DNA from: Hyphomicrobium sp. NDB2Meth4
GTDB taxonomy: Bacteria > Pseudomonadota > Alphaproteobacteria > Rhizobiales > Hyphomicrobiaceae
NCBI RefSeq assembly: GCF_900117445.1
Contig: NZ_FPEJ01000012.1
Location: forward strand, 1-32,114
Direction: 5' to 3'
DNA: 32,114 nucleotides
Shown here: one piece after another, positions 3,531 to 25,429 of the stretch
Position numbering within the stretch: position 1 is the stretch's first letter
How the letters are laid out: each line of letters begins with the position of its first letter
The notes under the pieces: model-generated
What the model saw: the letters and a program-made list of their open reading frames with translations, nothing else
The model's database searches: none
What the model was told of the DNA's origin: nothing
Translations under genes and position numbers: made by a program

Positions 3531-3556
3531 GTAACCATCCTCGAAGCCCACCCGAA
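3531..3556 (+). promoter_or_regulatory. ECF-type promoter GTAACC-N16-CGAA
   Basis: GTAACC (3531-3536, preceded by TG) is followed exactly 16 bp later by CGAA (3553-3556). It lies about 50 bp before the start of the small secreted peptide gene. It is one of five exact copies of this bipartite element in the window and is probably read by the sigma factor encoded at 11284-11880. Confidence 0.75.
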
Positions 3557-3606
3557 TATCCGCGACGTGCCACTTGGGGGCACTGTTCCACCCAAAGGAG
3601 AAGAGC

Positions 3607-3750
3607 ATGAAAGCGGTTTTCGCAATCCTCGTCGGCGTGATGGCTCTCGGGGTGACGACGCTCGGCGCCGCTGCCGATGAAAAGACCTGCAAGCCGGGTC
3701 AAGTCTATGACGAGGCGCAGGGCAAGTGCGTCACTCCACGCGGATCCTAG
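3607..3750 (+). CDS. Small secreted peptide with one Cys pair
   Basis: A 47-residue protein. It has a signal peptide (MKAVFAILVGVMALGVTTLGAAA) and a mature part of about 25 residues reading DEKTCKPGQVYDEAQGKC, with two Cys 14 apart that could form a loop disulfide or bind metal. The ribosome binding site AAAGGAGAAG is strong and correctly spaced. A GTAACC-N16-CGAA promoter lies upstream, which ties the gene to the presumed ECF sigma regulon together with the Cys-rich secreted proteins at 17904-18852. No named family is recognised; function unknown. Confidence 0.75.
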   Translation: MKAVFAILVGVMALGVTTLGAAADEKTCKPGQVYDEAQGKCVTPRGS

Positions 3751-3777
3751 GATCGGCGCCGAACTGCGTGAAGCTGC

Positions 3778-5268
3778 GTGACAGGTAGATCACCTCTCCT
3801 CTCGAGGCATGGACGCGCTGCACGGGATGCGGAGGAATTCGCATCCCGCCTGCTCTTGCGGGCGTGGTGGATGGCGGCCATCTCGACCGTTGTCTTCTCG
3901 GCGACGCTCGCAGTGCTCTCAGGCCGGTTTGGCTACGACGTCGACGTCATTGACATGCCCTGTTTGACGCTCGTCGGACTCCTGGTTGGAGCAGGCGCCG
4001 CGTATTCAAGTGGGCTTCCACGCTTGGTCGTGGCGTCCGGATCATCGGGCTCACAACATAGATTCCTGGCGATCGCGCTGACTGCAGGCCTCGTGGCGCG
4101 GCTCATTATGTTCGGAAGCGCGCCGATCCTCGAGGATGACTACAACCGCTATCTCTGGGACGGCGCCGTCACCGCGCATGGCTACAGTCCTTACGCAGTG
4201 CCACCGCTTGCCGTAATCGAAGGCCGCGTTCAGGGCCCGCTGCAAGATCTTGCGGCAGATGCCGGCGCAGCGCTTGGGCGCATCAATCACAAATCCCTGA
4301 CCACGATCTATCCGCCCGTCGCGCAAGGGGCGTTTGCGCTCGCCCATCTGATCGGGCCGTGGAGCCTTGCGGCATGGCGCGGTGTGCTGCTGGCGTTCGA
4401 CGTCGCCACCCTCGGCCTACTCGTTCTGATGCTCGATGTGACCGACCGCTCGCGCCTTTGGTGCACGCTCTACTGGCTCAATCCCGTGGTCCTCAAGGAA
4501 GTATTCAACTCCACGCATATGGAGGCCGTCATCCTGCCCTTTGTGCTTCTCGCGTTGCTGCTGGCAATGCGGCGTCGGCCGCTCGCGGCTAGCACGGCTC
4601 TCGGCCTTGCCGCCGGCGCCAAATTCTGGCCGGCACTATTGTTGCCCTTGATGCTGCGTGGTGCATGGCCCAGGGAGAGGACGAGATCGGCCGCAGCGGC
4701 GCTGGTCTTTGCTGGCCTGTTCACGCTGTGGCTGGCACCCATGGTGATTCACGGTGTCGATGAGGCGAACGGGCTGGTCGCTTACGCTGATGGCTGGCAA
4801 ATCAACAGCGCCCTGTTTCCGGTCATCGTTGGCCTGCTTTCATCGTTCCGGGACTGGATCGGATTCAGCGCTGTAGATGCCAATGGTCTCGCGCGAATGC
4901 TGATTGCGATTCTTCTGGCGGTGTTGGCTCTTTTCCTAGCCCACCGTCGACTGAACGGACTCGATGATCTTATCGCGCGCGCAAGCGTGGCCGTTAGCGC
5001 GCTGGTGCTGCTCTCTCCTGCCCTCTATCCCTGGTACACGGTGTGGATGGCGCCGTTCTTGGTGTTTCGCCCGTACCGGGCGTTTCTCATGCTGACTGCA
5101 CTCATCCCCCTTTACTATTCGTTCTTCCACTTTGCGGCGCGCGGGACCCTCGAGATCTTCAACTCATACGTCGTCCCAGGCATCTGGGCTCCAGTGTGGA
5201 TCGTGCTCTTCTGGGGCATGGCGGGCGCGGCTTTCTCCTATCGTGAGTGCGCAAGGAGTCAGCAATGA
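3778..5268 (+). CDS. GT-C type membrane glycosyltransferase (DUF2029/GT87-like)
   Basis: A 496-residue integral membrane protein with about 10-12 hydrophobic segments. The first large periplasmic loop contains EDDYNRYLWDG (119-129) followed by GYSPYAVPP, the acidic signature of GT-C transferases that take sugars from polyprenyl-phosphate donors. Further family-like elements are TIYPPVAQ, HMEAVILPF, GAKFWPAL and ALYPWYTVW. The start is GTG at 3778, the first possible start after an in-frame stop; no good ribosome binding site is visible, so the N-terminus is uncertain. The stop overlaps the next start (ATGA), so translation is coupled to a polyprenol-sugar synthase-like GT2. The two probably form a donor-making and donor-using pair in the envelope; the acceptor is unknown. 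Confidence 0.82.
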   Translation: MTGRSPLLSRHGRAARDAEEFASRLLLRAWWMAAISTVVFSATLAVLSGRFGYDVDVIDMPCLTLVGLLVGAGAAYSSGLPRLVVASGSSGSQHRFLAIALTAGLVARLIMFGSAPILEDDYNRYLWDGAVTAHGYSPYAVPPLAVIEGRVQGPLQDLAADAGAALGRINHKSLTTIYPPVAQGAFALAHLIGPWSLAAWRGVLLAFDVATLGLLVLMLDVTDRSRLWCTLYWLNPVVLKEVFNSTHMEAVILPFVLLALLLAMRRRPLAASTALGLAAGAKFWPALLLPLMLRGAWPRERTRSAAAALVFAGLFTLWLAPMVIHGVDEANGLVAYADGWQINSALFPVIVGLLSSFRDWIGFSAVDANGLARMLIAILLAVLALFLAHRRLNGLDDLIARASVAVSALVLLSPALYPWYTVWMAPFLVFRPYRAFLMLTALIPLYYSFFHFAARGTLEIFNSYVVPGIWAPVWIVLFWGMAGAAFSYRECARSQQ

Positions 5269-5969
5269 GAGATGGGCGGCGGATCGGCGTCATCATCCCG
5301 GCGCTGAACGAGGAGAACGCGATCGGGCTTGTCATTGGAGATATACCGGCGTGGGTCGATGAGATCGTCGTCGCCGACAACGGCTCCGGCGACGCAACTG
5401 TCTTTGAGGCGTCAAAGGCCGGGGCGCGCGTGGTCAGCGAGCTAGAGCGCGGCTACGGAGCCGCCTGCCAAAGAGGTCTTCAAGCATTGGAGGCTGCCGA
5501 CGTGGTGGTGTTCGTCGACGGCGATTACAGTGACGATCCTCGTCAGATGAGTCTTCTCGTCGATCCCATCCTCTCAGGGACAGCCGATCTCGTGATCGGC
5601 TCGCGCGTCATGGGTCGCGTTGAGCGCGGCGCACTCCTTCCCCAGCAGCGGTTCGGAAACTGGCTCGCCTGCCGCCTGATGCGGTACTTCTTCGGCGCGT
5701 CTTATTCCGATCTGGGACCATTTCGGGCGATACGGGCCGGCGCGCTGGAGAATCTCGCCATGCAGGACCGGGCCTTTGGGTGGACGGTCGAGATGCAGGT
5801 CAAGGCTGCCCGGACGGGAATCGCCACGATGGAGGTACCGGTGAGCTACAGGCGTCGTATCGGCGTCTCGAAGATTTCAGGAACGGTTTGCGGGACGATT
5901 CTTGCCGGACTGACAATTCTGCGCGTCATCTTCAAATTTCGCCATGCGAATTGCAGGGCTGCAGCCTAG
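5265..5969 (+). CDS. GT2 glycosyltransferase, polyprenyl-phosphate sugar synthase-like
   Basis: A 234-residue soluble GT-A fold enzyme of family 2, similar to dolichyl-phosphate mannose synthase-type proteins. The nucleotide-binding strand is IGVIIPALNEENAIG (7-21). VADNGSGD (37-43) and the metal-binding acidic motif VDGDYSDD (84-91) follow. SDLGPFRAI and WTVEMQVKAA are typical of the acceptor half. There are no C-terminal transmembrane helices. ATG at 5265 overlaps the preceding stop by 4 bp, and AAGGAGT lies before it; the earlier in-frame ATG at 5247 is less likely. It probably charges a lipid-phosphate sugar for the GT-C partner. The sugar is not predictable. Confidence 0.85.
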   Translation: MRDGRRIGVIIPALNEENAIGLVIGDIPAWVDEIVVADNGSGDATVFEASKAGARVVSELERGYGAACQRGLQALEAADVVVFVDGDYSDDPRQMSLLVDPILSGTADLVIGSRVMGRVERGALLPQQRFGNWLACRLMRYFFGASYSDLGPFRAIRAGALENLAMQDRAFGWTVEMQVKAARTGIATMEVPVSYRRRIGVSKISGTVCGTILAGLTILRVIFKFRHANCRAAA

Positions 5970-6028
5970 GCTCCTACGGCTAAGCCCTCGGGCGCGAGGC
6001 TTGCCGCCATGGCAGATCTTGAGCTGTG

Positions 6029-6892
6029 TCAGCCCCTGAGCCCGCGCACATAGGCTGCCGTGAGCTGGTGGCGCGGCTGCTCGAACAAGCGACGGCACTG
6101 GTCAAACTCGATCAGAGTGCCGGCGCGGTCATTGACCCAGAAGAACGCCGCGTAGTTGGCAATGCGCCGGGCCTGGCCGAGATTGTGTGTGACGATGACG
6201 ACCGTATAGCGGCCGCGCAGTGTTTCTATGAGATCCTCGACGACCGCGGATGACAGCGGGTCGAGCGCACTGCAGGGCTCGTCCATCAGCAGGATTTCGG
6301 GTTCGAGCACCAGCGCACGTGCCATGCAAAGGCGCTGCTGCTGGCCTCCCGAGAGAGACAGCGCGGCGCCGTCAAGCCGATCCTTGACCTCATCCCAAAG
6401 GCCCACGTCGACGAGGCTCCGCTCGACGCGAGCCGCAAGCTCGCTACGGCCCGTTATGCCGTGCTCCTTGAGTGGCATCTCCAGATTGCGGCGGATGGAC
6501 AGCGGAAACGGATTGGGCTTCTGGAAGATCATGCCGACGCGTTGCCGCAGGGCTTGGACGTCCACGCCGGAGCTGTGGATGTCCGCGCCATCGAGCATGA
6601 TGCGGCCTTCTACCCGGCATCCCGGAATGAGATCGGTCAGGCGATTGAGGCACGAAAGGAGGCTCGTCTTGCCGCATCCCGACGGACCAATGAGCGCCGT
6701 GATGCAACCCCGGTAGATATCCAGGCTGACATCCTTGAGGGCGGGCTTCCCGCCGTAGCCAAGAGACAGGCCATCGACCCGGATCTGCGTCTCAGGCCTG
6801 CAGCATGGAGGGCCCGAAAGCAGCGGACCGACAGTGTACGCCTTCCCATCGACAGCTTCGACAAGGCCTTCGCTCTCGCCGGTGATCGTCAT
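6029..6892 (-). CDS. pstB: Phosphate ABC transporter ATP-binding protein PstB
   Basis: A 287-residue ABC ATPase that energises phosphate uptake. Walker A is GPSGCGKT (69-76), the Q-loop is in FQKPNPFP (123-130), the signature is LSGGQQQR (180-187), Walker B is ILLMDEP (200-206), and the H-loop is in VIVTHN. FQKPNPFP and the spacing are typical of PstB. About 35 extra residues at the N-terminus precede the ABC domain. ATG at 6892 overlaps the pstA stop (ATGA), so it was preferred to the longer frame from 6934. It is the last gene of arsM-pstS-pstC-pstA-pstB, and no phoU follows. The neighbouring arsM suggests a role in phosphate supply under arsenate stress, or in arsenate entry. Confidence 0.93.
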   Translation of the reverse strand: MTITGESEGLVEAVDGKAYTVGPLLSGPPCCRPETQIRVDGLSLGYGGKPALKDVSLDIYRGCITALIGPSGCGKTSLLSCLNRLTDLIPGCRVEGRIMLDGADIHSSGVDVQALRQRVGMIFQKPNPFPLSIRRNLEMPLKEHGITGRSELAARVERSLVDVGLWDEVKDRLDGAALSLSGGQQQRLCMARALVLEPEILLMDEPCSALDPLSSAVVEDLIETLRGRYTVVIVTHNLGQARRIANYAAFFWVNDRAGTLIEFDQCRRLFEQPRHQLTAAYVRGLRG

Positions 6893-7764
6893 GATGCTGT
6901 GATCCTTCGCTTGAGGGTCCTCTCGGCAAGCCACGACGCAGCGCCATTGATGAGAATGAGAAGCGCAATGAGCACGAGCGCGGAGGCATATGCGCTGCGG
7001 TCGCCGCCTGCGACGTTCATTGTGAGGTCGTAGATGTGCACTGAGATGGCGCGGCCCGAGTCAAGCAGTGAGGCGGGCATGCGGTCTACGTAGCCGCTCG
7101 TAAATATCAGCGCGGCTGTCTCCGCCATGGCACGGCCGATTCCAAGCATCAGTCCCGCCACCAGGGCTGGTGCGGCCGCGGGAATGAGCACGTTCACCAG
7201 TGCGCTGGCCTTTGAAATGCCGAGCGCAGCCGCTCCCAGACGCCAGTCGTTAGGGACGGTTCGCAGTCCAGATTCGGCTGTACGAATGAGGATCGGCAGG
7301 ACCATGCACGCCAGCGTCAGCCCGCCGGAAAGTATCGAGAATCCCAGGCCCAGCCACACGCAGAAAAATGCATTGCCGAACAGCCCGAATACAATCGAGG
7401 GGACACCGGCGAGAATGTCGAGGCTGAGGCCAATCCAATATCCGGCACGGCCGCCCGGGCGTGAGAACTCGGAGAGTAGGATCGCGGTAGCTAGGCCCAG
7501 AGGCGCCGAAACGGCAAGCGCGACGGTGAGAATGAGCACTGTAGCGAGCAGAATTGGTGCAATGCCGCCATTGCGTCCGGCGCTACGCGGCGCTGCGGTG
7601 AGGAATTCCCAACCTATACGGTTGGCGCCGTGCCAGACAATGTCGAGCAGGAGCCAGCCGAACGTCGAGGTGATCACCACCACGGCGGCCAACACGAGCA
7701 GCTGGAGTGTGCGGTCGCGCAGAGCGATCCGGTGAGCGCTCCTATAGACGGCGAGACTATGCAT
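6889..7764 (-). CDS. pstA: Phosphate ABC transporter permease PstA
   Basis: An inner-membrane permease of about 291 residues. After a hydrophilic start it has about six transmembrane segments. The permease coupling motif is in ALGISKASALVNVLIPAAAPALVAGLMLGIGRAMAETAAL, the EAA-type loop that contacts PstB. GIAPILLATVLI and GVPSIVFGLF are typical of PstA/PstC. ATG at 7764 overlaps the pstC stop by 8 bp; a GTG at 7782 in the same frame is possible. It pairs with PstC to form the channel. Confidence 0.92.
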   Translation of the reverse strand: MHSLAVYRSAHRIALRDRTLQLLVLAAVVVITSTFGWLLLDIVWHGANRIGWEFLTAAPRSAGRNGGIAPILLATVLILTVALAVSAPLGLATAILLSEFSRPGGRAGYWIGLSLDILAGVPSIVFGLFGNAFFCVWLGLGFSILSGGLTLACMVLPILIRTAESGLRTVPNDWRLGAAALGISKASALVNVLIPAAAPALVAGLMLGIGRAMAETAALIFTSGYVDRMPASLLDSGRAISVHIYDLTMNVAGGDRSAYASALVLIALLILINGAASWLAERTLKRRITAS

Positions 7765-8611
7765 GCACGACCTGGCCACCACTGCGCCGCGCCACAGCCG
7801 CGAGCGCCAGCACCACTGCAGTCAGCGCGAGACCAGAAACGAAGAGCGACGCTCGATGGTCTCCAGTCGCGTAGGCCATCTCGAGCGCAATATTTGCAGT
7901 TAACGTGCGGACGGGATCGAAGAGAGACTTTGGCAGCTGCACGACATTGCCGCTGACCATAAGCACCGCCATGGTCTCACCGAGCGCGCGCGCCGAGGCG
8001 AGCATGACACCGGCAAAAATGCTGGCCTTCGTGGCTGGGATCGCGATGTTGATGATAATGGCTTCCCGCGACAGACCAAGCGCGGCGGCGCCGATCCCGT
8101 ACGCTGATGGCAAGCTCGCCAGGGCGGCTTCTGTCGTCAGCGCAATGGTGGGCAGGATCATTAGGGCGAGGATCAGGCTGCCAGCGAGCAGGCTGGTGCC
8201 TGGCGGGGCAACCTTGAGGATGAGCGGCACGATGACCGTCAGTCCCCACAGCCCAAGCACGACCGAAGGAATGCCTGCCAACAGCACAATCACCCAATGC
8301 AGGAGCCGCCCGACGATTCCGGCCGCATAAAATCGAGAGAAGATGGCTGCGGCCACTCCGAGCGGGGTCGCCAACGCTATCGCCAGCGCCGAGGTTGCCG
8401 CTGACGCAGCAAGCATCGGAACGAGGTTGAACGTGCCCTCAGTCGGATGCCATCCGCGAGCGGAAACGAAGTGGACCAGGCCGTAGCGGGCGATGACCGG
8501 CCACGATTCCTGCATCAAGAAAAGTACGATGAGAATTAGAACGGCAGAGGCGAGTCCGGCTGCGAATGCGAGCCATCGCAGCAGCCGCGCATCACGGGCC
8601 GAGGGGGACAA
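7757..8611 (-). CDS. pstC: Phosphate ABC transporter permease PstC
   Basis: An inner-membrane permease of 284 residues with six predicted transmembrane segments. It has PLGVAAAIFSRFYA, GIPSVVLGLWG and the coupling loop AALGLSREAIIINIAIPATKASIFAGVMLASARALGETMAVLM, all typical of PstC. The best start is TTG at 8611, with GGGAG about 9 bp before it and a 20-bp overlap with the end of pstS; no Met codon occurs before residue 33. It acts with PstA as the membrane channel of the phosphate importer. Confidence 0.91.
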   Translation of the reverse strand: MSPSARDARLLRWLAFAAGLASAVLILIVLFLMQESWPVIARYGLVHFVSARGWHPTEGTFNLVPMLAASAATSALAIALATPLGVAAAIFSRFYAAGIVGRLLHWVIVLLAGIPSVVLGLWGLTVIVPLILKVAPPGTSLLAGSLILALMILPTIALTTEAALASLPSAYGIGAAALGLSREAIIINIAIPATKASIFAGVMLASARALGETMAVLMVSGNVVQLPKSLFDPVRTLTANIALEMAYATGDHRASLFVSGLALTAVVLALAAVARRSGGQVVHA

Positions 8612-9404
8612 AGTACTGCTCCCTGACGAGATCGTAGGCCTCAGCGGACTTCGTAAAGTCGATGAAGGCTTTGGTGAGGCCTTGCGGCTCCGCGCTCGTG
8701 ACCAGGTTCAATGGGCGGGCGAGCGGAAAGCTGCCGTTGCGCACGTTCTCGACGGAAGCCGCGACGCCTGCCATGCCCAGGAGCTTGATAGGTGTCCCTG
8801 CGCGCGCCTCGAACTCGGCGGTTCCAATCGAGACGTAGCCGATCGCCCCTGGGTTTCCGGCTACGGTCTTGATACCCTGCTGGTTATCGCCGATGACTAC
8901 CTGCGCCTTGATATCGCTCGCCTTGAGCTTGAAGTGGTGCAGGAAGAGCTCGAGTGTCGAGCGCCCTTCGGCCTTGTTGACGACCGTGATAGGTCCCGCC
9001 TTGCCGCCGACCTCGGCCCAGTCGGTGATCTTGCCGGTGTAGATATCAACGATCTGCTGGTCAGAGAGGGCGGAAACGACATTGTCGCGATGAAGAATGA
9101 GGCTGACACCGTCGCGAGCAATGGCAAAGGCCTTGAGGTCCACCTCGTCGGATTTAAGCGCGCGCGAAACCATGCCGATGTCGGCAAGACCAGACCTGGC
9201 ATCACCGATCCCTCGCGACGATCCACCCGATTGCACATCAATACGGGTGCCGGGGCTCTTTTCCTCGAACCGCTTGGCCATTTCGGCTGCAAGCGGGGCA
9301 ATGGTGCTCGAGCCGGTGATGACGAGCTTACCTTCGGCCGACGATGCCGGCTGCATGGTGGTGGCAAGTACCAGCCCCGCCAGCAGGAATGTCCCGATAC
9401 GCAT
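8592..9404 (-). CDS. pstS: Phosphate-binding periplasmic protein PstS
   Basis: A 270-residue periplasmic binding protein. A signal peptide (about 1-24, ending PASSA) is followed by LVITGSSTIAPLAAEMAKRF, then VQSGGSSRGI and GLADIGMVSRAL, which line the phosphate site in PstS proteins. RDGVSLILHRDN and IYTGKITDWAEVGG are also family signatures. It belongs to the short PstS type (250-280 residues). ATG at 9404 follows GGAGGAG; the open frame extends further upstream but lacks a signal peptide there. It lies 37 bp after arsM on the same strand. Whether the pocket discriminates against arsenate cannot be seen from sequence. Confidence 0.92.
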   Translation of the reverse strand: MRIGTFLLAGLVLATTMQPASSAEGKLVITGSSTIAPLAAEMAKRFEEKSPGTRIDVQSGGSSRGIGDARSGLADIGMVSRALKSDEVDLKAFAIARDGVSLILHRDNVVSALSDQQIVDIYTGKITDWAEVGGKAGPITVVNKAEGRSTLELFLHHFKLKASDIKAQVVIGDNQQGIKTVAGNPGAIGYVSIGTAEFEARAGTPIKLLGMAGVAASVENVRNGSFPLARPLNLVTSAEPQGLTKAFIDFTKSAEAYDLVREQYFVPLGP

Positions 9405-9441
9405 GCGATCTCCTCCGTGTGGATTGGCGCGAGGCTTGCGA

Positions 9442-10494
9442 CTAACAGCAGGTCGACGCTTGCGACAGCGAACCGTTGCCGGCAGCGAACGGGATATTCG
9501 TGCCGCAGCCCGGGAAGACGCCGTAGTGCGTGGAAAAATCGCCGATGAAGTCGAAGTGGGGTGCGAGCCGGCTCTCTCGCAGCATGTGCCAAGTGTTGCC
9601 ACACACGGGGAACACGCGCCCGAGCTCGATCGCATGGTGGCTGTCGAGATGAAATATGTGCGGCGCTTCAAGTATGCCGCCGCGATAGATCACCGCCTGC
9701 CCGTAATCCTCGCATGCCGGCTCTAGCGCATCGATCTTGAACAGGCGATAGGTCGCCGAATAGAAGCGGGCCGACCCGATTTTCTCCTCGACGTGAGGAT
9801 CGGTGATATCCAGTGGACGGCTGGTGACAAGACGCGGATCGCCAAATCCTGACGCCCGCGCCAGCTCCAGGAAATCGCCCCAATAGAGAGCGCCGCCCAA
9901 GCACTCGCCGTAGACCAGCGGATCATTGCGCAGCGATTCTGGCAGGCGCCGGTCGGCATAGACGTCGGCAAAGTAGAACTCGCCGCCCGCCTTCAGAAGA
10001 TCGAACACGCCCTTGAGCACGGCGCGCTTGTCGATGGAGAGATTGACGACGCAGTTCGAGACGACGACGTCGAAGCTTGCCGGCTCGAGACCGAGCGTTG
10101 CGAGATCTTCGATATAGCCCTGGAGGAAGCGCACATTGGCTTTGGCGTGGCGAAAGCGCTCCATATGCCATTCCACATGGGAGCGTGCCGTTTCGAGCTG
10201 CTCGGGCGTCATGTCGACGCCGACGACCTCTCCGGACGGCCCGACGAGCTGGGCGAGCGCATAGACATCGCGCCCCGAGCCGCAGCCGAGATCGAGCACG
10301 CGACGTCCCTCGATGAGTTCCGGAACCACGAGACCGCAGCCGTAATACTTGGCGAGGACGTCGTCATGGATGTTGGCAAGGAGGGCCTTGATGCGCTCCG
10401 GCATGTTGTCCGGCGTGCAGCAAGCCTTGGTCTTGAGGTCGTCTGAGGTGCGCAGAACCTTCCCGTAGTAGTCCTTCACGATTTCGATATGCAT
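9442..10494 (-). CDS. arsM: Arsenite S-adenosylmethionine methyltransferase ArsM
   Basis: A 350-residue class I methyltransferase that methylates trivalent arsenic. The SAM site is VLDLGCGSGRDVYAL (66-80), with VDMT (93-96) as the ribose-binding acidic strand. The Cys set of the family is present: C25/C26 (KACC), C53 (YYGCG), C148 (SNCVVN) and C198 (GECLGGALYWGD), which match the arsenite-binding and disulfide Cys of characterised ArsM. The protein ends with a vicinal STCC, an extra thiol pair seen in some ArsM. ATG at 10494 follows AGAGGAC. It heads the pst operon and follows the sigma/NrsF pair on the same strand. Together with the glycosyltransferases at 21619 and 25553 it suggests organoarsenical synthesis. 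Confidence 0.93.
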   Translation of the reverse strand: MHIEIVKDYYGKVLRTSDDLKTKACCTPDNMPERIKALLANIHDDVLAKYYGCGLVVPELIEGRRVLDLGCGSGRDVYALAQLVGPSGEVVGVDMTPEQLETARSHVEWHMERFRHAKANVRFLQGYIEDLATLGLEPASFDVVVSNCVVNLSIDKRAVLKGVFDLLKAGGEFYFADVYADRRLPESLRNDPLVYGECLGGALYWGDFLELARASGFGDPRLVTSRPLDITDPHVEEKIGSARFYSATYRLFKIDALEPACEDYGQAVIYRGGILEAPHIFHLDSHHAIELGRVFPVCGNTWHMLRESRLAPHFDFIGDFSTHYGVFPGCGTNIPFAAGNGSLSQASTCC

Positions 10495-13128: not shown

Positions 13129-13130
13129 GC

Positions 13131-17903: not shown

Positions 17904-18146
17904 CTATTTCTTTGCGGCGCATGGATTGCAGGGCGACCCTACTTTCTTCGCCGCACATGGATTGCAGGGATTCGAGGCCTTCCTTGCCGCGCAGGGATTG
18001 CAGGCGCCCTTCTTCGGACCGCAAGGATGAGCGGCCTTGGGTTTGCACGGACCGCAAGCGGCCCGGGCCGGTGACACTTCCGCAGCGACGGCCGCCAACG
18101 GCAGAGCAACGGATGCCGCGAGCAGCGATTTTGTAAGCTTACGCAT
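17904..18146 (-). CDS. Secreted Cys-rich repeat peptide (CNPC/CGPC)
   Basis: An 80-residue protein. Residues 1-30 are a signal peptide (MRKLTKSLLAASVALPLAAVAA). The mature part of about 50 residues holds nine Cys at 31, 34, 42, 49, 52, 61, 64, 73 and 76, mostly as CxPC pairs. NPCNPCAAKK is repeated with small changes three times, and the DNA repeats with it. ATG at 18146 follows AGAGAGGA. A near-consensus ECF promoter lies upstream (18193-18218). It resembles the N-terminal part of the next upstream gene. Dense CxxC and Lys suggest binding of thiophilic metal(oid)s in the periplasm (inference); no characterised family is recognised. Confidence 0.85.
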   Translation of the reverse strand: MRKLTKSLLAASVALPLAAVAAEVSPARAACGPCKPKAAHPCGPKKGACNPCAARKASNPCNPCAAKKVGSPCNPCAAKK

Positions 18147-18192: not shown

Positions 18193-18218
18193 TTCTCGGC
18201 TGCCGGTTGGAAGGTTAC
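18193..18218 (-). promoter_or_regulatory. ECF-type promoter, one mismatch (GTAACC-N16-AGAA)
   Basis: On the minus strand GTGTAACC is followed 16 bp later by AGAA, where the other copies have CGAA. It is 46 bp before the start of the Cys-rich peptide gene, the same arrangement as for its neighbour. Confidence 0.6.
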
Positions 18219-18249: not shown

Positions 18250-18852
18250 TCAGCGCTTTGCGTACGTTTTCTGCTGCTCCTCGACATAGGCCGTGAGGGC
18301 GGCGAGCTGCTCGGAGTCCCACGGCAGCGGCTTGCTCATCATCGGCCGTATCAGACAGAACTGAACCATGCCCTCAGCACTTATCGACGCGATGCCGGAA
18401 ACCTCGTCCGGCATCTGGACTTTGTGCGGATAGGGCTGCTTGAAGCTGTCATTGAAGCCCATGAAGTCGCTGTGGCAGCTGGTGCACGCCGTCTCGTTCG
18501 TGCTGAGAGACGCGTCGCTGTAGAGCTTCTCGCCAAGTTGAAGCAGCCGGGCGCGATCGCCAGCAAAGGGCTTGGTGCCGGCCGGGCGCGTAACCTCGGA
18601 TGGCTTGGGTACTGCGAGATCGCCGGCTGCGCACGGATTGCACGGATTGGCGGGCTGTTTCGCTCCGCAAGGCCCCTTGGCGGCGCACGGATTGGACGCG
18701 GACTTGGAGCGTCCCGCCGCGCACGGGCTGCAGGGTTTGGATGCTCTCGGCCGGCAGGGGCCACAGGCGGCGCGGATAGCCGAAGAGCTCGAGGCGGCGA
18801 TGGCAACAGGAAGGGCGACGGCCCCAAGGAGGGCCTTGGTCATCTTGCGCAT
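18250..18852 (-). CDS. Exported Cys-rich domain fused to a c-type cytochrome
   Basis: A 200-residue protein in three parts. Residues 1-28 are a signal peptide. Residues 30-76 form a Cys-rich segment with C30, C33, C41, C44, C56, C62, C71 and C74 (CGPC, CSPC, CNPC), like the neighbouring 80-residue peptide. Residues about 95-200 form a monoheme cytochrome c domain with CTSCH (123-127) and Met171/172 as possible distal ligands (PMMSKPLPW). ATG at 18852 follows CGGAGA. An exact GTAACC-N16-CGAA promoter lies just upstream. It may couple metal(oid) or thiol binding to electron transfer in the periplasm (inference). The fusion is unusual and I know no characterised example. Confidence 0.87.
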   Translation of the reverse strand: MRKMTKALLGAVALPVAIAASSSSAIRAACGPCRPRASKPCSPCAAGRSKSASNPCAAKGPCGAKQPANPCNPCAAGDLAVPKPSEVTRPAGTKPFAGDRARLLQLGEKLYSDASLSTNETACTSCHSDFMGFNDSFKQPYPHKVQMPDEVSGIASISAEGMVQFCLIRPMMSKPLPWDSEQLAALTAYVEEQQKTYAKR

Positions 18853-18896: not shown

Positions 18897-18922
18897 TTCG
18901 TACCGGAAGGCGTGCAGGTTAC
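18897..18922 (-). promoter_or_regulatory. ECF-type promoter GTAACC-N16-CGAA
   Basis: On the minus strand GTAACC (18922-18917) and CGAA (18900-18897) are exactly 16 bp apart. The element is 45 bp before the start of the Cys-rich/cytochrome gene and overlaps the stop-codon end of the preceding gene. Confidence 0.75.
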
Positions 18923-19695
18923 TCTGGAAGCACGCGATCAACGCGCTCGCTGGCGCCAGTGCGCGTCTCGAGCGCAACATCGACCCACGCGATCTGCGCG
19001 TCGATGTCGATCGGCAGCTCCGAGGTTATCTCGAGCCGGCGATCCTCGAAGACGTCGCCGTCGGGGTAGCGGCGCTGCCAGTCCTCTATAGCCGTGTCGC
19101 GCCGGCGCAGAAGGATCTCGACCTGCGGCCGGAATAGCCGCACCACCGCTGTGATCCACCGATTGGTGGCAAGGCACGGATAGGCGTGATCGATGTTGAA
19201 CCGATCGAGCATCGCGATGACGGCGTCCGCGGCATAGAAAGTCTCCCCCGTCACCCATCGGTTGGTCGTGAAGAGTGCGGTCGGCAGTCCCCTGCTGTCC
19301 ATGGCGATCGCGATCAGATGGGAAATGGCATCATCGTCGAGCGGCCGATCAGCTCCGCCCGTATATGGCACTGGCTCGATGTCAAACGGCATCCCCTTCG
19401 CACGAAGGAATGTGTGAAAGTGACCATGCTCGCCGGTTTCCGGGCGATGCGCGTGATAGTAGTACTGCGCCCCCGTCTCGTCGTCGTAGATGTCGCCCTT
19501 GGGATAATGATCGAGCTCGATGAACTCGCCCTGATGCCTAAGGACCTGGGCCACCGGATTTGTTCCCGCCTTTCCAAGCACCCGCAGAGCCTCGAGGACC
19601 TCATCGGCGGCGCGCGACATGCGTCTGAGACTCGGTATTGAAAGGCATTCAAGATCGGCGGTATCTCCCGCCTTGAGCTGGATAGCACTTGACAT
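18919..19695 (-). CDS. DUF6969-like protein
   Basis: A 258-residue protein without signal peptide or membrane segments. A His-rich stretch YYYHAHRPETGEHGHFHTFLR (about 77-97) and the segment TTNRWVTGETFYAADAVIAMLDRFNID followed by CLATNRWITAVVRLFRPQ are its most distinctive parts. I associate this pattern with the DUF6969 family, from memory. The clustered His could bind a metal. ATG at 19695 follows AGGAGA. An exact ECF-type promoter lies at 19739-19764. Together with the adjacent Cys-rich genes it forms the core of the presumed sigma regulon. Function unknown. Confidence 0.75.
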   Translation of the reverse strand: MSSAIQLKAGDTADLECLSIPSLRRMSRAADEVLEALRVLGKAGTNPVAQVLRHQGEFIELDHYPKGDIYDDETGAQYYYHAHRPETGEHGHFHTFLRAKGMPFDIEPVPYTGGADRPLDDDAISHLIAIAMDSRGLPTALFTTNRWVTGETFYAADAVIAMLDRFNIDHAYPCLATNRWITAVVRLFRPQVEILLRRRDTAIEDWQRRYPDGDVFEDRRLEITSELPIDIDAQIAWVDVALETRTGASERVDRVLPE

Positions 19696-19738: not shown

Positions 19739-19764
19739 TTCGCGCCACCCTGGCGCGGGGTTAC
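19739..19764 (-). promoter_or_regulatory. ECF-type promoter GTAACC-N16-CGAA
   Basis: On the minus strand TGTAACC (ending 19759) and CGAA (19742-19739) are 16 bp apart. The DUF6969-like gene starts 43 bp downstream. Confidence 0.75.
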
Positions 19765-19865
19765 ACCGCGCAGTAGTTCCCCTGACCCGCTCTATTCTTG
19801 ATGAAACCATTTTTGGGACAGAACCGAAGCAGGGCGTAGTCGACGCGCTGCACGGAGATCCAAAA

Positions 19866-20549
19866 ATGCGCAAGCTAGGTCATCGCGGTCCGCTTCGTTG
19901 CTTACCTTCATGCGTGGCTGCCGTGCTCGTCGCGACGGCGCCGGTACCAGCCTACGCACAAGACTTGATCGCGTATTTCTGGGGAGGCGGTCGCGAACAC
20001 GGTGGCGGCCGACATACGCTTTCCTTCAGCCACGACTTCGAGGCCGGTGAGATCATCGTAAGCTTCGCGGACCGCCGACTCTATCACGTCATCCGGAAGG
20101 GACGCGCGACGAGCTATCCGATCGCGGTACCCCGCGAACAGAGTCGCTGGGAAGGCAGAACGGTCGTTTCGATGAAGCGCGAGAACCCGGCCTGGACGCC
20201 AACGGCCAACATGAAGCGTGAGAATCCACGCCTCCCCTCCTGGGTGCCGGGTGGCCACCCCATGAACCCGCTTGGCATACGCGCGCTCTATCTTGGCGCT
20301 ACGACGTACCGGATTCATGGCACCGATGCGCCGTGGACGATAGGGCAGGCCGTCTCGAAGGGCTGCGTCCGTATGTACAATGAGGATGTCCTTGACCTCT
20401 ATCCGAAGATCCCGGTCGGAACCCGGGTCACGGTGACGTGGCAGCGGTTTCAGGCGCATAAAGCAGCATCGAATGCAGATGAAGAGGCATCGGCATCGAC
20501 CATCCTGACCCGCTCAACCAAACACGTGCGCGATGCGAGGGCCGAATGA
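19866..20549 (+). CDS. L,D-transpeptidase (YkuD domain)
   Basis: A 227-residue exported protein. A signal peptide (about 1-31, ending PAYA) precedes the YkuD domain, which starts about 61 (GEIIVSFADRRLYHV). The active site is HGTDAPWTIGQAVSKGCVRMYNEDV with H151 and nucleophile C167, the HxGT...SxGCxR motif. The insert repeats MKRENP at 103 and 116. It would form 3-3 peptidoglycan cross-links or link proteins to the wall. The start ATG follows GGAGAT. The next gene overlaps its end by 17 bp. Confidence 0.9.
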   Translation: MRKLGHRGPLRCLPSCVAAVLVATAPVPAYAQDLIAYFWGGGREHGGGRHTLSFSHDFEAGEIIVSFADRRLYHVIRKGRATSYPIAVPREQSRWEGRTVVSMKRENPAWTPTANMKRENPRLPSWVPGGHPMNPLGIRALYLGATTYRIHGTDAPWTIGQAVSKGCVRMYNEDVLDLYPKIPVGTRVTVTWQRFQAHKAASNADEEASASTILTRSTKHVRDARAE

Positions 20550-20751: not shown

Positions 20752-20774
20752 GCGGAATAGGACGTCTCGCCGCT

Positions 20775-21035: not shown

Positions 21036-21071
21036 TCGTAATGATTGTTGTCATGCCGACCGACACGGCCT

Positions 21072-21638
21072 TCATCGTCGTCGCTGCTCCCCTCCCTGCA
21101 ACGTACAAAACCCCTGCGGAGGGACGTCAAGCGCTGCATTGAACTTCGACGAGAGATTTTGAAATGCGATGAGGCCCGTCAGTTCGACGATAGTATCATC
21201 GTCCCACATCTGCTTGAGGCGCCGGCGCAGGTCGTCGCAGACACCGGGGCGCGTGATGGTCATCGCTTCCGCGTACTCGAGTGCGAGGCGTTCCTCGGGG
21301 CTGAATAGCGCGCTCTCGCGCCAGCGGCCGAGCTGCTCGATCTTGTCCGCAGGGACACCGCGTTTCTCCAGCGTCGCCGAGTTTATGTCGACGCAAAAGG
21401 CACAATGGTTGATCTGCGAGACGCGCACTGTGATGAGCGATCTGAGGGCGGGGCGCAGGGGCGATGACGCGCGGTCGAGGGCGCCATAGAGCAAAGCGAC
21501 CGGGGCAAACACGCGGGGAGACCTGGCCCACAGGAGTCCAGGGTCGAGTACCTGGCCGTAGGTGCGCCTTTGTTTCCAGAAGAAGAGCCGAACCCACCAC
21601 GGATACGCGGAAATGGGATTAGCCGCGACAACGCGCAT
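21072..21638 (-). CDS. CMD/AhpD-like protein lacking relay residues
   Basis: A 188-residue CMD-family protein with CxxC at C79/C82 (NHCAFCVDINS). The usual AhpD Glu twelve residues before the first Cys is Ser (S67), and the His after the second Cys is Asn (N86). Classical AhpD peroxidase chemistry is thus doubtful. An N-terminal extension WWVRLFFWKQRRTYGQV is distinctive. ATG at 21638 follows GGGAGCGA and overlaps the DUF2064 gene by 20 bp. CMD/peroxidase-like proteins accompany arsenosugar-type glycosyltransferase genes in other bacteria, as I recall; this supports a role in the same pathway. Confidence 0.8.
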   Translation of the reverse strand: MRVVAANPISAYPWWVRLFFWKQRRTYGQVLDPGLLWARSPRVFAPVALLYGALDRASSPLRPALRSLITVRVSQINHCAFCVDINSATLEKRGVPADKIEQLGRWRESALFSPEERLALEYAEAMTITRPGVCDDLRRRLKQMWDDDTIVELTGLIAFQNLSSKFNAALDVPPQGFCTLQGGEQRRR

Positions 21639-22227
21639 GCATTCGCTCCCATCGTGGATGCAGCGCGAGCGCGTTCGCGTCGTCGATATCGTCGAGCTGC
21701 GGGAGTCTAGCCACGCTGCGCCCTACGAGATTGGATAGGGTGTCCGCGAGCGCGTACTCCGTCGACCATCGCACCGCGCGAAACGGATCGGGCATGGTGG
21801 GCCGGCGGCGCAGTCCGATGGCCCAATAGCCGCCATCCCCCGAGGGCCCAATGACCGCTTCGTGACCCTCGAGTGCATGAAAAGCGCGCGATATGAGATC
21901 GCGGGTGAGTCCCGGAACATCGCTGCCGATCACAAGCACGGATCCTCGCGGCAGCGCCGCGCAGACGCGTTGGAGCCTCGTTCCAAGATCCCCCTCGCCT
22001 TGCGGGATGAATCCGTACTGCGACGGCCACGGGCCCGATCGATCGGGTGTCACGGCCAGCCAGATCCTCCAGCGCCGATCCGAGCCCAGGTGCTGCAAGG
22101 TATGGGCGAGACTGACCCGCTGAAAGCGCAGCGCCGTGGCCGCGCCAACACCCGCTGCAAGCCGGCGTTTGCCTGTGCCGAAGCTGGGATAGCGTGTGAA
22201 GATCACGAGATGGCGGCTATGGCGCAT
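21619..22227 (-). CDS. DUF2064 / TIGR04282-type glycosyltransferase-like protein
   Basis: A 202-residue GT-A-like nucleotidyl/glycosyl transferase. It has IFTRYPSFGTGKRRLAAGVG (substrate loop), GDLGTRLQRV, VLVIGSDVPGL with its acidic metal site (SDVPGL), and IGPSGDGGYWAIGLRR. These match DUF2064, which NCBI names TIGR04282 arsenosugar biosynthesis glycosyltransferase. ATG at 22227 overlaps the TVP38 gene end. It is in one operon with TVP38, FAD oxidoreductase and radical SAM genes, and a TIGR04283-like transferase is divergent from the operon. With arsM in the same window, an organoarsenical pathway is plausible. The substrate is inferred, not shown. Confidence 0.85.
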   Translation of the reverse strand: MRHSRHLVIFTRYPSFGTGKRRLAAGVGAATALRFQRVSLAHTLQHLGSDRRWRIWLAVTPDRSGPWPSQYGFIPQGEGDLGTRLQRVCAALPRGSVLVIGSDVPGLTRDLISRAFHALEGHEAVIGPSGDGGYWAIGLRRRPTMPDPFRAVRWSTEYALADTLSNLVGRSVARLPQLDDIDDANALALHPRWERMHARCRG

Positions 22228-22933
22228 GATCCTGAACCGGCGAGCCCTTTCCTGCGCCCCTCTTCAAGAAGACCGGCAAGAGCGCGAGCACGCCCAGACC
22301 GACGAGAGCGGCGATCAGTGTTGGACTGAGCACGTCCTTGAGGTGCACGTCGCCGCCGGCGTCGAAAACGTTGCCCAGGCTCGCGCCGAAGGCGGAGTAC
22401 ACGACGGTGCCAGGGATGATGCCGATTGCCGTGGCGATCACGTAGGGGAGCAGGCGCATGCCCAGGAGAGCCGGAGCCAGATTGACAGCCCAGAACGGAA
22501 ACGCCGGGACGAGCCGCAGAAACAAGAGATAATTGAAGGCGTTTCTACTGAACCCCTCGGCCATGCGCCCGAGAAACGGACCTGCACGCTCGCGCAAGGC
22601 GTTGCCGACAGCGGAGCGCGCTATGACAAAGAGCGCTGTCGCTCCGAGCGTGGCACCAACCACTGTCAACGACGCCCCGAGGGGGACGCCGAACAGGAAC
22701 CCGCCGGCAAGCGTCATGATGGTGGCGCCCGGCAAGGACAGGGCGACAATACCGGCGTATGCCAGCACAAAGGCGATGGCGGCCCAACTCCCATATCGCG
22801 CGACGGCCTCCAGCAGCGAGACCCGGTTCTCGCGGAGGGCATCGAGCGTGAGATAGCGGTCGAGATCAAGGGCGAAGGCCGCAACGATCAGGCCAATGAG
22901 AACCATGAGTGGCAGAATGCGTCCAAGTGTCAT
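22217..22933 (-). CDS. TVP38/TMEM64 (VTT domain) membrane protein
   Basis: A 238-residue inner-membrane protein with five to six hydrophobic segments. The VTT/SNARE-associated domain shows LSLPGATIMTLAGGFLFG, LRLVPAFPFWAVNLAPALLGM and IGIIPGTVVYSAFGASLG, the conserved re-entrant loop features. ATG at 22933 overlaps the oxidoreductase stop (ATGA). Relatives are thought to scramble or flip lipids (DedA superfamily). Here it could move a lipid or lipid-linked product of the operon (inference). Confidence 0.9.
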   Translation of the reverse strand: MTLGRILPLMVLIGLIVAAFALDLDRYLTLDALRENRVSLLEAVARYGSWAAIAFVLAYAGIVALSLPGATIMTLAGGFLFGVPLGASLTVVGATLGATALFVIARSAVGNALRERAGPFLGRMAEGFSRNAFNYLLFLRLVPAFPFWAVNLAPALLGMRLLPYVIATAIGIIPGTVVYSAFGASLGNVFDAGGDVHLKDVLSPTLIAALVGLGVLALLPVFLKRGAGKGSPVQDHAP

Positions 22934-24354
22934 CCGAATGCTCCTAGAAAGCGCACTACCCACTGCGTCCGTGCCGAGAAGAGTGTGGGCGTGAAGTAGC
23001 TCCCAGCGGCGCGCTTTGAGATCTCGCTCAGTGTCGGATAGGGAGCGATCACGCCAGCCATGTCACCGATCTTGTGCCCCTTCGAGATCGCCAGCACCCA
23101 GGGCAGAACCAGCTCGCCGGCGTGCGGCCCGACGATCGTTGCGCCGAGAATGCGTCCGCCTCTCCCAACGACCGCCTTGAGAAAGCCCTGCGTGGCAGCT
23201 TCCGCCTGCGCGCGGTCATTCTCCGCAAACTCGGCGCGGACCACTCGAACGCCGTCCCCGTGCAACTTGCGGGCGTCGGCCTCGTTCAGTCCGACCTGCG
23301 CGAGCTCCGGATCGGTATAGGTTACCCACGGCAACGCTTTCGGCGCGTTCCTGGCAGGCAGGCGGAACAAGGCATTTCGCAGGACGATGCCGGCGTGATA
23401 GCTCGCCACATGCGTGAACTGATAGCCGCCAATCACGTCGCCTGCGGCAAAGATGCGCTTATTCGACGTGCGCAGGCGCGCATCGACCTCGATGCCTTTA
23501 GGCGTGTAACGCACACCCGCTTCATCGAGCCCAAGGTGCCTCACATTGGCCTGCCTACCCGTTGCGATTAGCAGGTGCGAGCCTTCGATGCGCCGCGCGT
23601 TGTCGCCGCCCAGCAGGACAGCAACTCCGGAGGCGGTCCTTTCCACTTTTTCGATTCTGATGGCCTCGGCTGTCTCGATGCCTTCGGTGATGAACTGCTG
23701 ACGCACCACGTCGACGGCATCGAGATCATCCTTCGGTAGCATGCGAGCAAGGTCGAGCACCGTCACCCGGGCCCCGAGGCGCCGGTGCGCCTGTGCCATC
23801 TCGCAACCGATCGGTCCGGCGCCAATCACGATGAGGTGCTCGGGGAGAACCGCGTTATCGAAGATCGTTTCGTTGGTGAAGTACGGGACCGCCTCGAGTC
23901 CTCGTATCGGTGGCACGAATGGGCTGCTGCCGGTGGCGATCACAAACCGCCTCGCGCGGATCTTGTAGCTTCCGGCGAGAATAGTACGGCGATCGATGAA
24001 ATGCCCCCGCGCCTCGATAACCCGGCAACCCAGGCCCATGAAGCGCTCGACCGAGTCGTGCGGAGCGATGGCGCCGATGACGTCATGCACATGGCGATTG
24101 GCGGCGCCGAAATCCACATGCGCTTCGACGCCGTTGATGCCGAAGCGCGCGCCGCCGCGTAGGGTCTTAGCGGCTTTCGCGGCCGCCAGCAGGGCTTTTG
24201 AGGGTACGCAGCCGGTATTGAGGCAATCGCCACCCATGCGATGCCCCTCAATGAGCACCGTCCTGGCGCCCATCTGGGCCGCACCCGCTGCGACGGACAG
24301 TCCAGCCGAGCCGCCTCCAATGACGCAAATGTCAGCCTTTATTGTCTCCAGCAT
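22930..24354 (-). CDS. Mercuric reductase/dihydrolipoamide dehydrogenase-like FAD oxidoreductase
   Basis: A 474-residue flavoprotein disulfide reductase. The FAD site is ICVIGGGSAGLS (9-20), and the redox disulfide is GGDCLNTGCVPSK with C44 and C49. NAD(P)H binding is in LIVIGAGPIGCEMA, and the second FAD motif is RIFAAGDVIG. The dimer domain ends near PYPTLSEISKRAAGSYFTP. It lacks the N-terminal metal-binding domain and the C-terminal Cys pair of true MerA, and the Lpd-type His-Glu pair is not obvious. It follows the radical SAM gene by 7 bp and precedes TVP38. The likely role is thiol or disulfide reduction for the operon product. Confidence 0.9.
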   Translation of the reverse strand: MLETIKADICVIGGGSAGLSVAAGAAQMGARTVLIEGHRMGGDCLNTGCVPSKALLAAAKAAKTLRGGARFGINGVEAHVDFGAANRHVHDVIGAIAPHDSVERFMGLGCRVIEARGHFIDRRTILAGSYKIRARRFVIATGSSPFVPPIRGLEAVPYFTNETIFDNAVLPEHLIVIGAGPIGCEMAQAHRRLGARVTVLDLARMLPKDDLDAVDVVRQQFITEGIETAEAIRIEKVERTASGVAVLLGGDNARRIEGSHLLIATGRQANVRHLGLDEAGVRYTPKGIEVDARLRTSNKRIFAAGDVIGGYQFTHVASYHAGIVLRNALFRLPARNAPKALPWVTYTDPELAQVGLNEADARKLHGDGVRVVRAEFAENDRAQAEAATQGFLKAVVGRGGRILGATIVGPHAGELVLPWVLAISKGHKIGDMAGVIAPYPTLSEISKRAAGSYFTPTLFSARTQWVVRFLGAFG

Positions 24355-24361
24355 CTGCGCC

Positions 24362-25372
24362 TCACCGCGGACCCGCGCAGGACGCGCCGCCGAGAACGCA
24401 GAAACGTGCGCAGTGCCTGTGGTTGAGGCTCACCGAGCTGCGCGCGCCATCGAGGGTGGAGGCCATCTCGAAGGCCTCGGCATAGGGCAGAAGCGTGCAC
24501 GCCACTACGGAAGCACGGTCGGATCCCTTGCGTCGCACAACCATGCGCGAATTGGAGCACATGACATCGGATGGGGACTTTCCGAGCTTCTCCCAACACC
24601 CCTCGCTGATCTCCGGCACGTCGCAGTCTTCGTTCATCTCGGGGAACAGCACGAGCTGTGCGGGATCGTCCGCATCAAGCGACAGTCCAAGCGCTGCGAA
24701 CAACGCAGCGTAGCCGCGACGCATTTCGGATTCGGTCATGCCCCACACTGTGCGTCCCGCGACCGAAAGCGTGAAGCCGTTCTTGGAGAGCCAGCGCAGA
24801 CCGTCGATCGTCGGCTGCCAGCTTCGTGGGCCCCTAAGCTCTTCATGCCCGCACTGCTCGAAATGATCGAGCGACACGCGGATGGCCAGGCGATCGGGAA
24901 ATCGCCGCACAAGCTCCAGGAGCTGATCCTTGCGCCGCTGCATCGGCCGCATGGCATTGGTCAGGACGAGGACGGTAAACCCGTGCGCAAGACTGTCCTC
25001 GAGCATTGCGGGAAACTCCGGATTCATGAATGGCTCGCCGCCTGTGAATCCGATCTCGGCCGGCCGGTCGGGCAAGCTTGCGGCCTCATCCAGAAACCTC
25101 CGCACCTCGCCGCACGTGAGATAGGAAAGCCGGTCGTTTCTGGGCGAGGACTCGATGTAGCAGTTGTGACAAGCGAGATTGCAGAGGGTTCCGGTATTGA
25201 ACCAAAGCGTCGCGTAGCCCCGGAAGGGGGCATGAGCCCGCCTTTCGCCGCAGACTGTAAAGTGCTGATTGCCGAACTTGGCAGGGAGCGTGCGCTCGCA
25301 AATCTCCTCAATGTCGGAATTGCTTTCGACTTCAGCGCGGTGCGCCGTGCTTCTCGCTTCTTCGATCGACAT
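24362..25372 (-). CDS. Radical SAM protein with possible auxiliary cluster
   Basis: A 336-residue radical SAM enzyme. C64-x3-C68-x2-C71 (CNLACHNC) binds the SAM cluster, followed by YIESSPRNDRLSYLT, and GGEPFMNPE (111-119) is the SAM-binding motif. The tail HCARFCVLGGASC has C321, C325 and C332, which could hold a second Fe-S cluster. Start 25372 was chosen because GGAGGATGG precedes it and an exact ECF promoter (25404-25429) lies inside the longer frame. It leads an operon with FAD oxidoreductase, TVP38, DUF2064 and CMD genes. It differs from ArsS, whose motif and C-terminal domain are not seen. Substrate unknown: either small-molecule arsenic chemistry or peptide modification. Confidence 0.88.
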   Translation of the reverse strand: MSIEEARSTAHRAEVESNSDIEEICERTLPAKFGNQHFTVCGERRAHAPFRGYATLWFNTGTLCNLACHNCYIESSPRNDRLSYLTCGEVRRFLDEAASLPDRPAEIGFTGGEPFMNPEFPAMLEDSLAHGFTVLVLTNAMRPMQRRKDQLLELVRRFPDRLAIRVSLDHFEQCGHEELRGPRSWQPTIDGLRWLSKNGFTLSVAGRTVWGMTESEMRRGYAALFAALGLSLDADDPAQLVLFPEMNEDCDVPEISEGCWEKLGKSPSDVMCSNSRMVVRRKGSDRASVVACTLLPYAEAFEMASTLDGARSSVSLNHRHCARFCVLGGASCAGPR

Positions 25373-25403
25373 CCATCCTCCGCGACTGGCTTGCGAAGGG
25401 AGT

Positions 25404-25429
25404 TTCGCGGAGGGGGCGGCAAAGGTTAC
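25404..25429 (-). promoter_or_regulatory. ECF-type promoter GTAACC-N16-CGAA
   Basis: On the minus strand GTAACC (25429-25424) and CGAA (25407-25404) are 16 bp apart. The radical SAM start is 31 bp downstream. This links the radical SAM operon to the same promoter class as the Cys-rich genes. Confidence 0.75.

Follow-up and report, generated by a model that had tools for sequence, protein, structure and literature searches.

The stretch analysed here, referred to as the window, is a complete contig of 32,114 bases (NZ_FPEJ01000012.1) from Hyphomicrobium sp. NDB2Meth4 and makes up about 0.8% of the 4.08 Mb genome. It encodes an extracytoplasmic function (ECF) sigma factor beside an NrsF-type anti-sigma factor, together with secreted-looking Cys-rich peptides, a DUF6969 protein and a radical SAM unit, and it carries several copies of the motif GTAACC-N16-CGAA. 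An earlier note, made from the bare sequence, had taken this motif to tie scattered genes into one stress response. The sigma/NrsF pair named in that note was recovered by Pfam, which found both domains, with PF06532 scoring 113.6 bits against a gathering cut-off of 26.8 for NrsF. The features concerned are listed below, where G006 is the genome of a sister species and G029 another related genome.

3531-3556, plus strand: exact copy of the motif, predicted sigmaF-type promoter of a small secreted peptide gene that starts 50 bp further on (3607)
3607-3750, plus strand: 47-residue secreted-looking peptide with two Cys, 60% identical in G029
3778-5268 and 5247-5969, plus strand: GT87 gene, then GT2 gene, behind the peptide gene
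6029-9407: pstS, pstC, pstA and pstB, behind the ArsM-like gene
9442-10494, minus strand: ArsM-like methyltransferase gene, downstream of nrsF
10613-11287, minus strand: NrsF-type anti-sigma gene (PF06532; GTG start at 11287, first ATG at 11278)
11284-11880, minus strand: ECF sigma factor gene, sigmaF/ECF16-like, of a second clade (Pfam Sigma70_r2 and r4_2)
11498-11523, minus strand: GAAACC-N16-CGAA in the sigma gene, on its sense strand; predicted sigmaF-type promoter reading towards nrsF
12055-12080, plus strand: exact motif with no gene in promoter position, kept in G006
17904-18146, minus strand: secreted-looking Cys-rich NPC-repeat peptide of 80 residues
18193-18218, minus strand: near-exact predicted promoter with AGAA, 46 bp before the NPC-repeat peptide gene (start 18146)
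18250-18852, minus strand: NPC-repeat protein, secreted-looking, whose C-terminal part resembles a cytochrome (CxxCH)
18897-18922, minus strand: exact motif, predicted promoter 44 bp before the NPC-repeat/cytochrome fusion gene (start 18852), recurring in G006 and G029
18919-19695, minus strand: DUF6969 protein (PF22308, 275.6 bits)
19739-19764, minus strand: exact motif, predicted promoter 43 bp before the DUF6969 gene (start 19695), recurring in G006
19803-19828, plus strand: GAAACC-N16-CGAA as candidate promoter; an L,D-transpeptidase-like gene (19866-20549) follows after 37 bp
21072-25372, minus strand: unit of radical SAM (24362-25372), MerA-like flavoprotein (22930-24354), VTT membrane protein (22217-22963), TIGR04282 DUF2064 protein (21619-22227) and CMD protein (21072-21638)
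25404-25429, minus strand: exact motif, predicted promoter of the radical SAM gene at a distance of 31 bp, recurring in G006

The window contains 11 GTAACC hexamers, as the earlier note had counted, against 3.53 expected from shuffles. Five are followed by CGAA at exactly 16 bp, at the coordinates and on the strands given in that note (3531 and 12055 plus; 18922, 19764 and 25429 minus), and their 16-bp spacers are unlike one another; 100 shuffled sequences yielded a mean of 0.02 such sites and never more than 1 (the note had put chance at about 0.04). The sixth site, with AGAA, was located at 18193-18218. Five of these six do stand close to start codons. Counted from the -10 element, 31-50 bases separate them from the start (25-50 bp in the note), if the radical SAM start is taken as 25372, inside a longer mechanical open reading frame (24362-25582). 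The remaining site, 12055, is probably not a promoter of any gene: it reads in the direction opposite to the sigma gene, and what lies ahead of it is the 3' end of a convergent LysR gene. Because it is kept in G006, where a second similar site 531 bp further precedes a longer YiiX-like frame (name by eye), it is probably an orphaned copy. Two sites have to be added to the original list: one within the sigma gene (11498 minus), which had been overlooked, and the candidate at 19803 plus.

The genome-wide scan proposed in the earlier note returned seven exact matches, of which five lie on the window contig (binomial P 6e-10), and no excess over control: the reversed pattern had 12 exact matches, and with at most one mismatch the motif gave 167 matches versus 213 for its reverse. 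The motif excess is therefore confined to the neighbourhood of the window, that is, to a local regulon, and a whole-genome regulon is not supported by these counts. One of the two exact sites elsewhere falls within a long frame. The other (C15:216828-216853, minus strand) lies about 28 bp 5' of a small secreted-looking protein gene, a possible distant regulon member, which diverges from a frame that looks by eye like a metal sensor of the CsoR/RcnR type.

The motif is identical to the one published for Caulobacter sigmaF (PMC3511200), a likeness that the note had pointed out, and corresponds to the tGTAACc-N16-CGAA of group ECF16 (PMC3420878). We searched for it around sigma homologues in the best 80 of at least 398 confirmed relatives, gathered for an alignment of eight sigma homologues. 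A spacer of 16 gave 107 matches in 63 of the 80 loci, a spacer of 15 gave 11, and spacers of 8-14 and 17-24 gave 0-5 each; these relatives share ancestry and the counts are not independent. With the sigma gene excluded, 93 matches in 59 loci remained at N16, compared with 11 at N15, two at N17 and a mean of 1.3 (maximum 4) for fourteen other spacers. The consensus in these loci widens to C-GTAACC-TTT. Among single changes of the -35 element, GTAACT (24 versus a control mean of 0.6) and GAAACC (17 versus 4.7) were enriched; GCAACC (9 versus 5.5) and the remaining changes were not clearly so. GAAACC and GTAACT thus appear to be tolerated -35 variants, and the site at 19803 was therefore added as a candidate promoter. 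It has a GAAACC counterpart at the matching place in G006, and the L,D-transpeptidase-like gene, which the 40 kb read of G006 did not show, is an uncertain target. Gene calls in the scanned loci were heuristic (the longest plausible frame by rule, some clearly wrong); by eye, the frames behind sites include DUF2282-like peptides, thioredoxin-like, DoxX-like, ArsM-like, radical SAM, DUF2064-like and NPC-repeat proteins.

Comparison with related genomes, also proposed in the earlier note, bore the gene-linked sites out, since each has a counterpart in front of a related gene in a further genus. The sister species G006, whose sigma factor is 93% identical, was the sole one of seven congeners searched with so close a homologue. 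Its sites precede the NPC, NPC-cytochrome, DUF6969 and radical SAM genes, and the 12055, 19803 and intragenic sites recur there as well. The 18193 site has the same AGAA variant in G006 and the exact motif in G029, where exact sites lie before NPC, NPC-cytochrome and DUF692 genes. An exact counterpart of the 3531 site stands in G029 before related peptide-GT87-GT2 genes, which were not found in the stretch of G006 read. G009 has a GTAACT variant before DUF6969, and in a Methylocapsa locus (L059) 31 bp separate an exact site from the gene of a radical SAM protein very similar, by eye, to that of the window. No motif site was present in the 40 kb read of G030, whose sigma factor is 49% identical. 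Together, the N16-specific enrichment and the recurrence before related genes support the view that the window sites would act as sigma-dependent promoters. At the Methylocapsa locus (M. aurea; 2493 minus and 9801 plus), an exact site also lies 5' of an ArsM-like frame (by eye).

Such promoters could nevertheless be real and be read mainly by a canonical-type sigmaF encoded on contig C8, with the window sigma factor as a minor or different player. The genome does hold this second pair, a 32% identical sigma factor at C8:481345 and an NrsF at C8:481920, and cross-recognition is conceivable, as 7 of 22 canonical-type loci have such sites within about 1.5 kb. We consider the explanation unlikely, however: the other 15 of the 22 have none, no such site was present in 17 kb of sequence surrounding the C8 genes, five of the seven exact sites sit with the window's own sigma factor, and the sites recur beside its close homologues in G006 and G029. 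The C8 pair itself (C8:481345-482525, locus L184) has a DoxX-like frame behind it and RND-efflux-like frames on its flanks (all named by eye).

Of the 107 exact N16 matches, 14 fall at a single place within the sigma gene. When this place was compared in 81 homologues (the 80 loci and the window), G[AT]AACC-N16-CGAA was found there on the sense strand in 60, whereas 4.0 (standard deviation 1.9) would be expected in the 78 rows whose first codon encodes Glu or Val; the expectation follows each locus's codon usage given its amino acids, with three rows carrying Asp or Leu set aside. The distance to the nrsF start was a median of 216 bp (range 176-342) in the 70 site-bearing rows in which that start was located by rule. 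A second copy was found nowhere else in these sigma genes, and one copy in the 700 bp after them. The peptide patterns used to find the loci lie outside this stretch. We infer that the intragenic element is a sigmaF-type promoter driving nrsF.

The same bases might instead be kept because the function of the protein, the structure of the RNA or its translation requires them, and the encoded residues are in fact fairly conserved, with Glu or Val in 78 of 81 rows. The conservation extends, however, to synonymous positions that spell both promoter elements. The first codon is GAA in 58 of 60 Glu rows (27.7 expected) and GTA in 17 of 18 Val rows (1.8 expected); Thr is ACC in 62 of 74 (27.5 expected) and Phe is TTT in 61 of 68 (20.9 expected). 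Of 75 codons preceding AA, 72 finish with CG (29.7 expected), be they Thr, Ala, Pro or Ser, while the AA of CGAA is forced by Asn or Lys codons and hence uninformative. Among 169 codons, the largest A/T excess falls on the Glu/Val and Phe codons of the site. The spacing is likewise held, CGAA following G[AT]AACC at 16 bp in 60 rows, at 11 in three, at 23 in three and at no other distance within 8-24, and the site is absent from all 26 canonical-type rows. We therefore regard constraint of this other kind as improbable, marginally more so than reading by the C8 sigma factor. The codon choice would then be a clear case, across distant bacteria, of coding sequence recording a regulatory element.

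On the same side, the upstream promoter published for canonical systems is almost missing. An upstream sense-strand site before the sigma gene occurs in only 1 of the 80 loci (79 with the full 400 bp), and the window's sigma gene has no own-strand upstream site among the matches with at most one mismatch to GTAAC-N17-CGAA. In a tree of 115 rows, scored with a slightly wider site pattern and with the trait codons kept in the alignment, one starred branch separates 89 rows on the window's side from 26 canonical-type homologues; L009-L014 were omitted, the same genomes being already among the named loci. The internal site is present in 74 of 89 rows versus 0 of 26, and an upstream sense-strand site in 1 of 89 versus 6 of 26. 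The single row with both is the Methylocapsa locus L059. Rows on the window's side come from proteobacteria and from assemblies labelled Acidobacteriota and Gemmatimonadota. Eleven plasmid records, hand-picked from 274 at a looser limit, comprise three with the internal site, three with an upstream site and five with neither. No title among those listed by our literature search concerns a promoter within the coding sequence of an ECF sigma factor, and the texts on this family name none in their available parts; supplements with start-site tables were outside its scope, and absence from print is not proven.

That the local cluster is a chance or repeat by-product is barely credible. The genome-wide exact and one-mismatch counts, no higher than the reversed control, speak for it; it is contradicted by five sites observed versus 0.02 in shuffles, by five of seven in 0.8% of the genome, by differing spacers, by recurrence in other genera and by the spacing peak in 80 loci.

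NrsF differs along the same divide. The window protein carries Cys112, Cys131 and His181, as do most of 80 NrsF sequences of the window's side (73, 78 and 74 of 80, respectively), and none has Cys at 181. All 13 canonical-type proteins (10 from the genome-search loci, the C8 copy of this genome included, and three from plasmids) have Cys at each of positions 131 and 181, with a gap opposite 112. Both classic Cys residues (131 and 181) matter for function in Caulobacter NrsF (PMC3511200); the window protein does not have this pair, and it scores 21.5 bits against the NCBIfam equivalog AntiSigF_NrsF (NF042994), under the cut-off of 300. A combination of Cys, Cys and His would point to metal binding more than to a pair of thiols.

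By neighbourhood and motif, the window system still belongs with sigmaF/ECF16 in the wide sense: a gene with ECF sigma regions 2 and 4 adjoins an NrsF (DUF1109) gene and, by sequence only, GTAACC-N16-CGAA precedes the target genes. It departs from the canonical definition in the NrsF Cys pair, in the autoregulated promoter expected before the sigma gene and in regulon content, where DUF692 would be expected, and is therefore best described as a variant clade. Caulobacter crescentus SigF/NrsF (PMC3511200, PMC8224329) shares the motif, the adjacent NrsF-type gene and a small regulon. Its sigF promoter lies upstream, unlike the internal one predicted here, its NrsF has Cys131/Cys181 rather than Cys112/Cys131/His181, and its targets are DUF2282, DUF692, DUF2063, DoxX and YedY genes rather than NPC peptides, DUF6969 and a radical SAM operon. 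Copper raises both of its genes, sigF and nrsF (PMC8224329). The EcfF-OsrA system of Bradyrhizobium and RpoE7-EcfR7 of Sinorhizobium (PMC3420878, PMC6180224) likewise pair an ECF16 sigma gene with an adjoining anti-sigma gene, DUF1109 in OsrA, and GTAAC...CG promoters. Unlike the window clade, EcfF and RpoE7 are described as using a promoter in front of the gene that encodes them, which is what one would predict from the canonical side.

Cupriavidus metallidurans RpoQ-RsqA (PMC10304878, PMC7563307, PMC11647585) also joins an ECF sigma factor to a membrane anti-sigma factor, and rpoQ-rsqA diverges from gigPABT, which encodes a small periplasmic Cys peptide and partners. Its targets are gig genes rather than NPC peptides, and the available texts on it name no internal promoter. 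The rpoQ-rsqA genes are reported to be RpoD-dependent, as the window clade would predict; RpoQ is not among our tree rows. Bufferins (PMC12452194) are small Cys peptides linked to sigma/NrsF genes, for which cytochrome fusions have been reported. They are described alongside DUF692/MNIO enzymes, whereas this genome has no DUF692 (PF05114) match, as against 29 of 60 genomes searched that have one, and the NPC peptide lies under the family cut-offs. The Cys-rich products are therefore not DUF692-linked bufferins, an identity that the missing enzyme rules out.

The predicted targets are themselves unusual. The NPC-repeat peptide matches no family at cut-off (best Pfam E 0.092, best NCBIfam E 0.28), and the NPC/cytochrome fusion matches PF03150 over a short stretch (28.1 bits, cut-off 25.6). 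NPC peptide matches were found in 4 of 8 genomes with a close sigma homologue versus 4 of 92 others. DUF6969 is present in 75 of 337 genomes searched in the class, and DUF6969 with secreted-looking NPC-repeat proteins forms a recurrent neighbourhood there. An NPC-type repeat frame lies within about 1.5 kb in 14 of the 30 best-scoring DUF6969 loci, compared with 0 of 30 NrsF loci and 2 of 10 DUF692 loci; a sigmaF-type pattern match occurs in 3 of the 30 DUF6969 loci read. Larger neighbourhoods were read in 14 stretches, 13 of them chosen for NPC frames. Among the neighbours there are often NPC proteins whose end resembles cytochrome P460 (two tested, 26.0 and 26.9 bits, cut-off 27) and sometimes an FGE-sulfatase domain protein (146.2 bits, one tested). 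In G064:C22 (L185), a DUF6969-like frame (by eye) lies near long NPC-repeat frames in a genome with no NrsF match. The DUF6969 structure model, a confident one (mean pLDDT 86.3, pTM 0.86), had no match in the PDB at E 0.001 or better (best E 0.24), and several His are invariant among 28 rows. A literature search, with most subscription papers outside its scope, returned nothing on DUF6969 and, for NPC-repeat strings, only papers unrelated by title. The pairing of NPC-repeat proteins with DUF6969 thus has the look of a secreted system that many bacteria share.

Taken together, these comparisons make it probable, in our judgement, that the window holds a local accessory regulon of a sigmaF-type ECF sigma factor with a self-limiting circuit through a further promoter in the sigma coding sequence. 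The membrane protein NrsF would sense a metal or a thiol-reactive signal in the periplasm through Cys112, Cys131 and His181, and the sigma factor would be released. RNA polymerase carrying it would read the GTAACC-N16-CGAA promoters of the NPC-repeat peptides, the NPC/cytochrome fusion, DUF6969, the small secreted peptide and the radical SAM operon. The same sigma factor would fire the intragenic promoter, yielding more anti-sigma factor and no complete sigma factor, with a transcript that perhaps extends into the ArsM-like and Pst genes. Such a circuit would drive its own brake and not its own accelerator, so that the inhibitor rises while the activator stays flat, unlike the usual sigma/anti-sigma operon, and several genes without assigned function would be tied to one predicted metal- or thiol-stress switch. 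Of the single stress response first proposed, the shared local sigma-type promoters are supported; the stress itself is suggested by relatives. The wider account is held with confidence only slightly beyond an even balance: that a large sigmaF-type clade moved its autoregulatory promoter into the sigma coding sequence, that its NrsF exchanged Cys-Cys for a Cys-Cys-His metal site, and that the system is coupled here to a previously undescribed NPC-repeat/DUF6969 module replacing bufferins.

Several observations weigh against the self-limiting circuit. Besides the genome-wide counts below their control, the shared ancestry of the scanned loci and the sites near canonical-type sigma genes, all given above, the window's own intragenic -35 element is GAAACC, a weaker-looking variant, and the internal site is missing from 15 of the 89 window-side rows. 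For C. metallidurans, overexpression of rpoQ after copper has been reported (PMC7563307), and a metal-shock table gives 2.19 for rpoQ and 2.11 for rsqA (PMC11647585; column meaning inferred), which does not speak for a flat sigma factor, should RpoQ belong to this clade. Our confidence is slightly lowered by the reported rise of rpoQ.

Other genes of the window may be attached to this set. The nrsF, ArsM-like and pst genes keep the same order in G006 and G029, and the latter two are a possible continuation of the nrsF unit. The 47-residue peptide behind the 3531 site has CBM_14 as its best Pfam match (20.5 bits, under the cut-off of 22.1). Three further features belong here.

16075-16758, minus strand: DUF3047 protein (PF11249), beside the DUF547 gene
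16777-17652, minus strand: DUF547 protein (PF04784), possibly downstream in the same unit as the NPC-repeat peptide; the DUF547 gene in genome G028 has an exact site upstream
25521-25546, plus strand: weak candidate GCAACC-N16-CGAA before a TIGR04283-like glycosyltransferase gene (25553-26275), divergent from the predicted radical SAM promoter

The radical SAM operon, the ArsM-like and Pst genes and the TIGR04282- and TIGR04283-like proteins hint at arsenic or similar chemistry. TIGR04282 is the only arsenic-named model over its cut-off (143.5 bits, cut-off 134), TIGR04283 remaining under it (146.6 versus 182). An arsenosugar pathway was kept only as a lead, as the ArsM-like protein scores 162.2 bits against 263 and ArsS 58.6 against 300. 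No terminal overlap of 20-399 bases was found at the contig ends. The G+C content drops from about position 27,000 onward, and an IS110-family transposase-like frame (by eye) lies at 30731-31759, close to the contig end.

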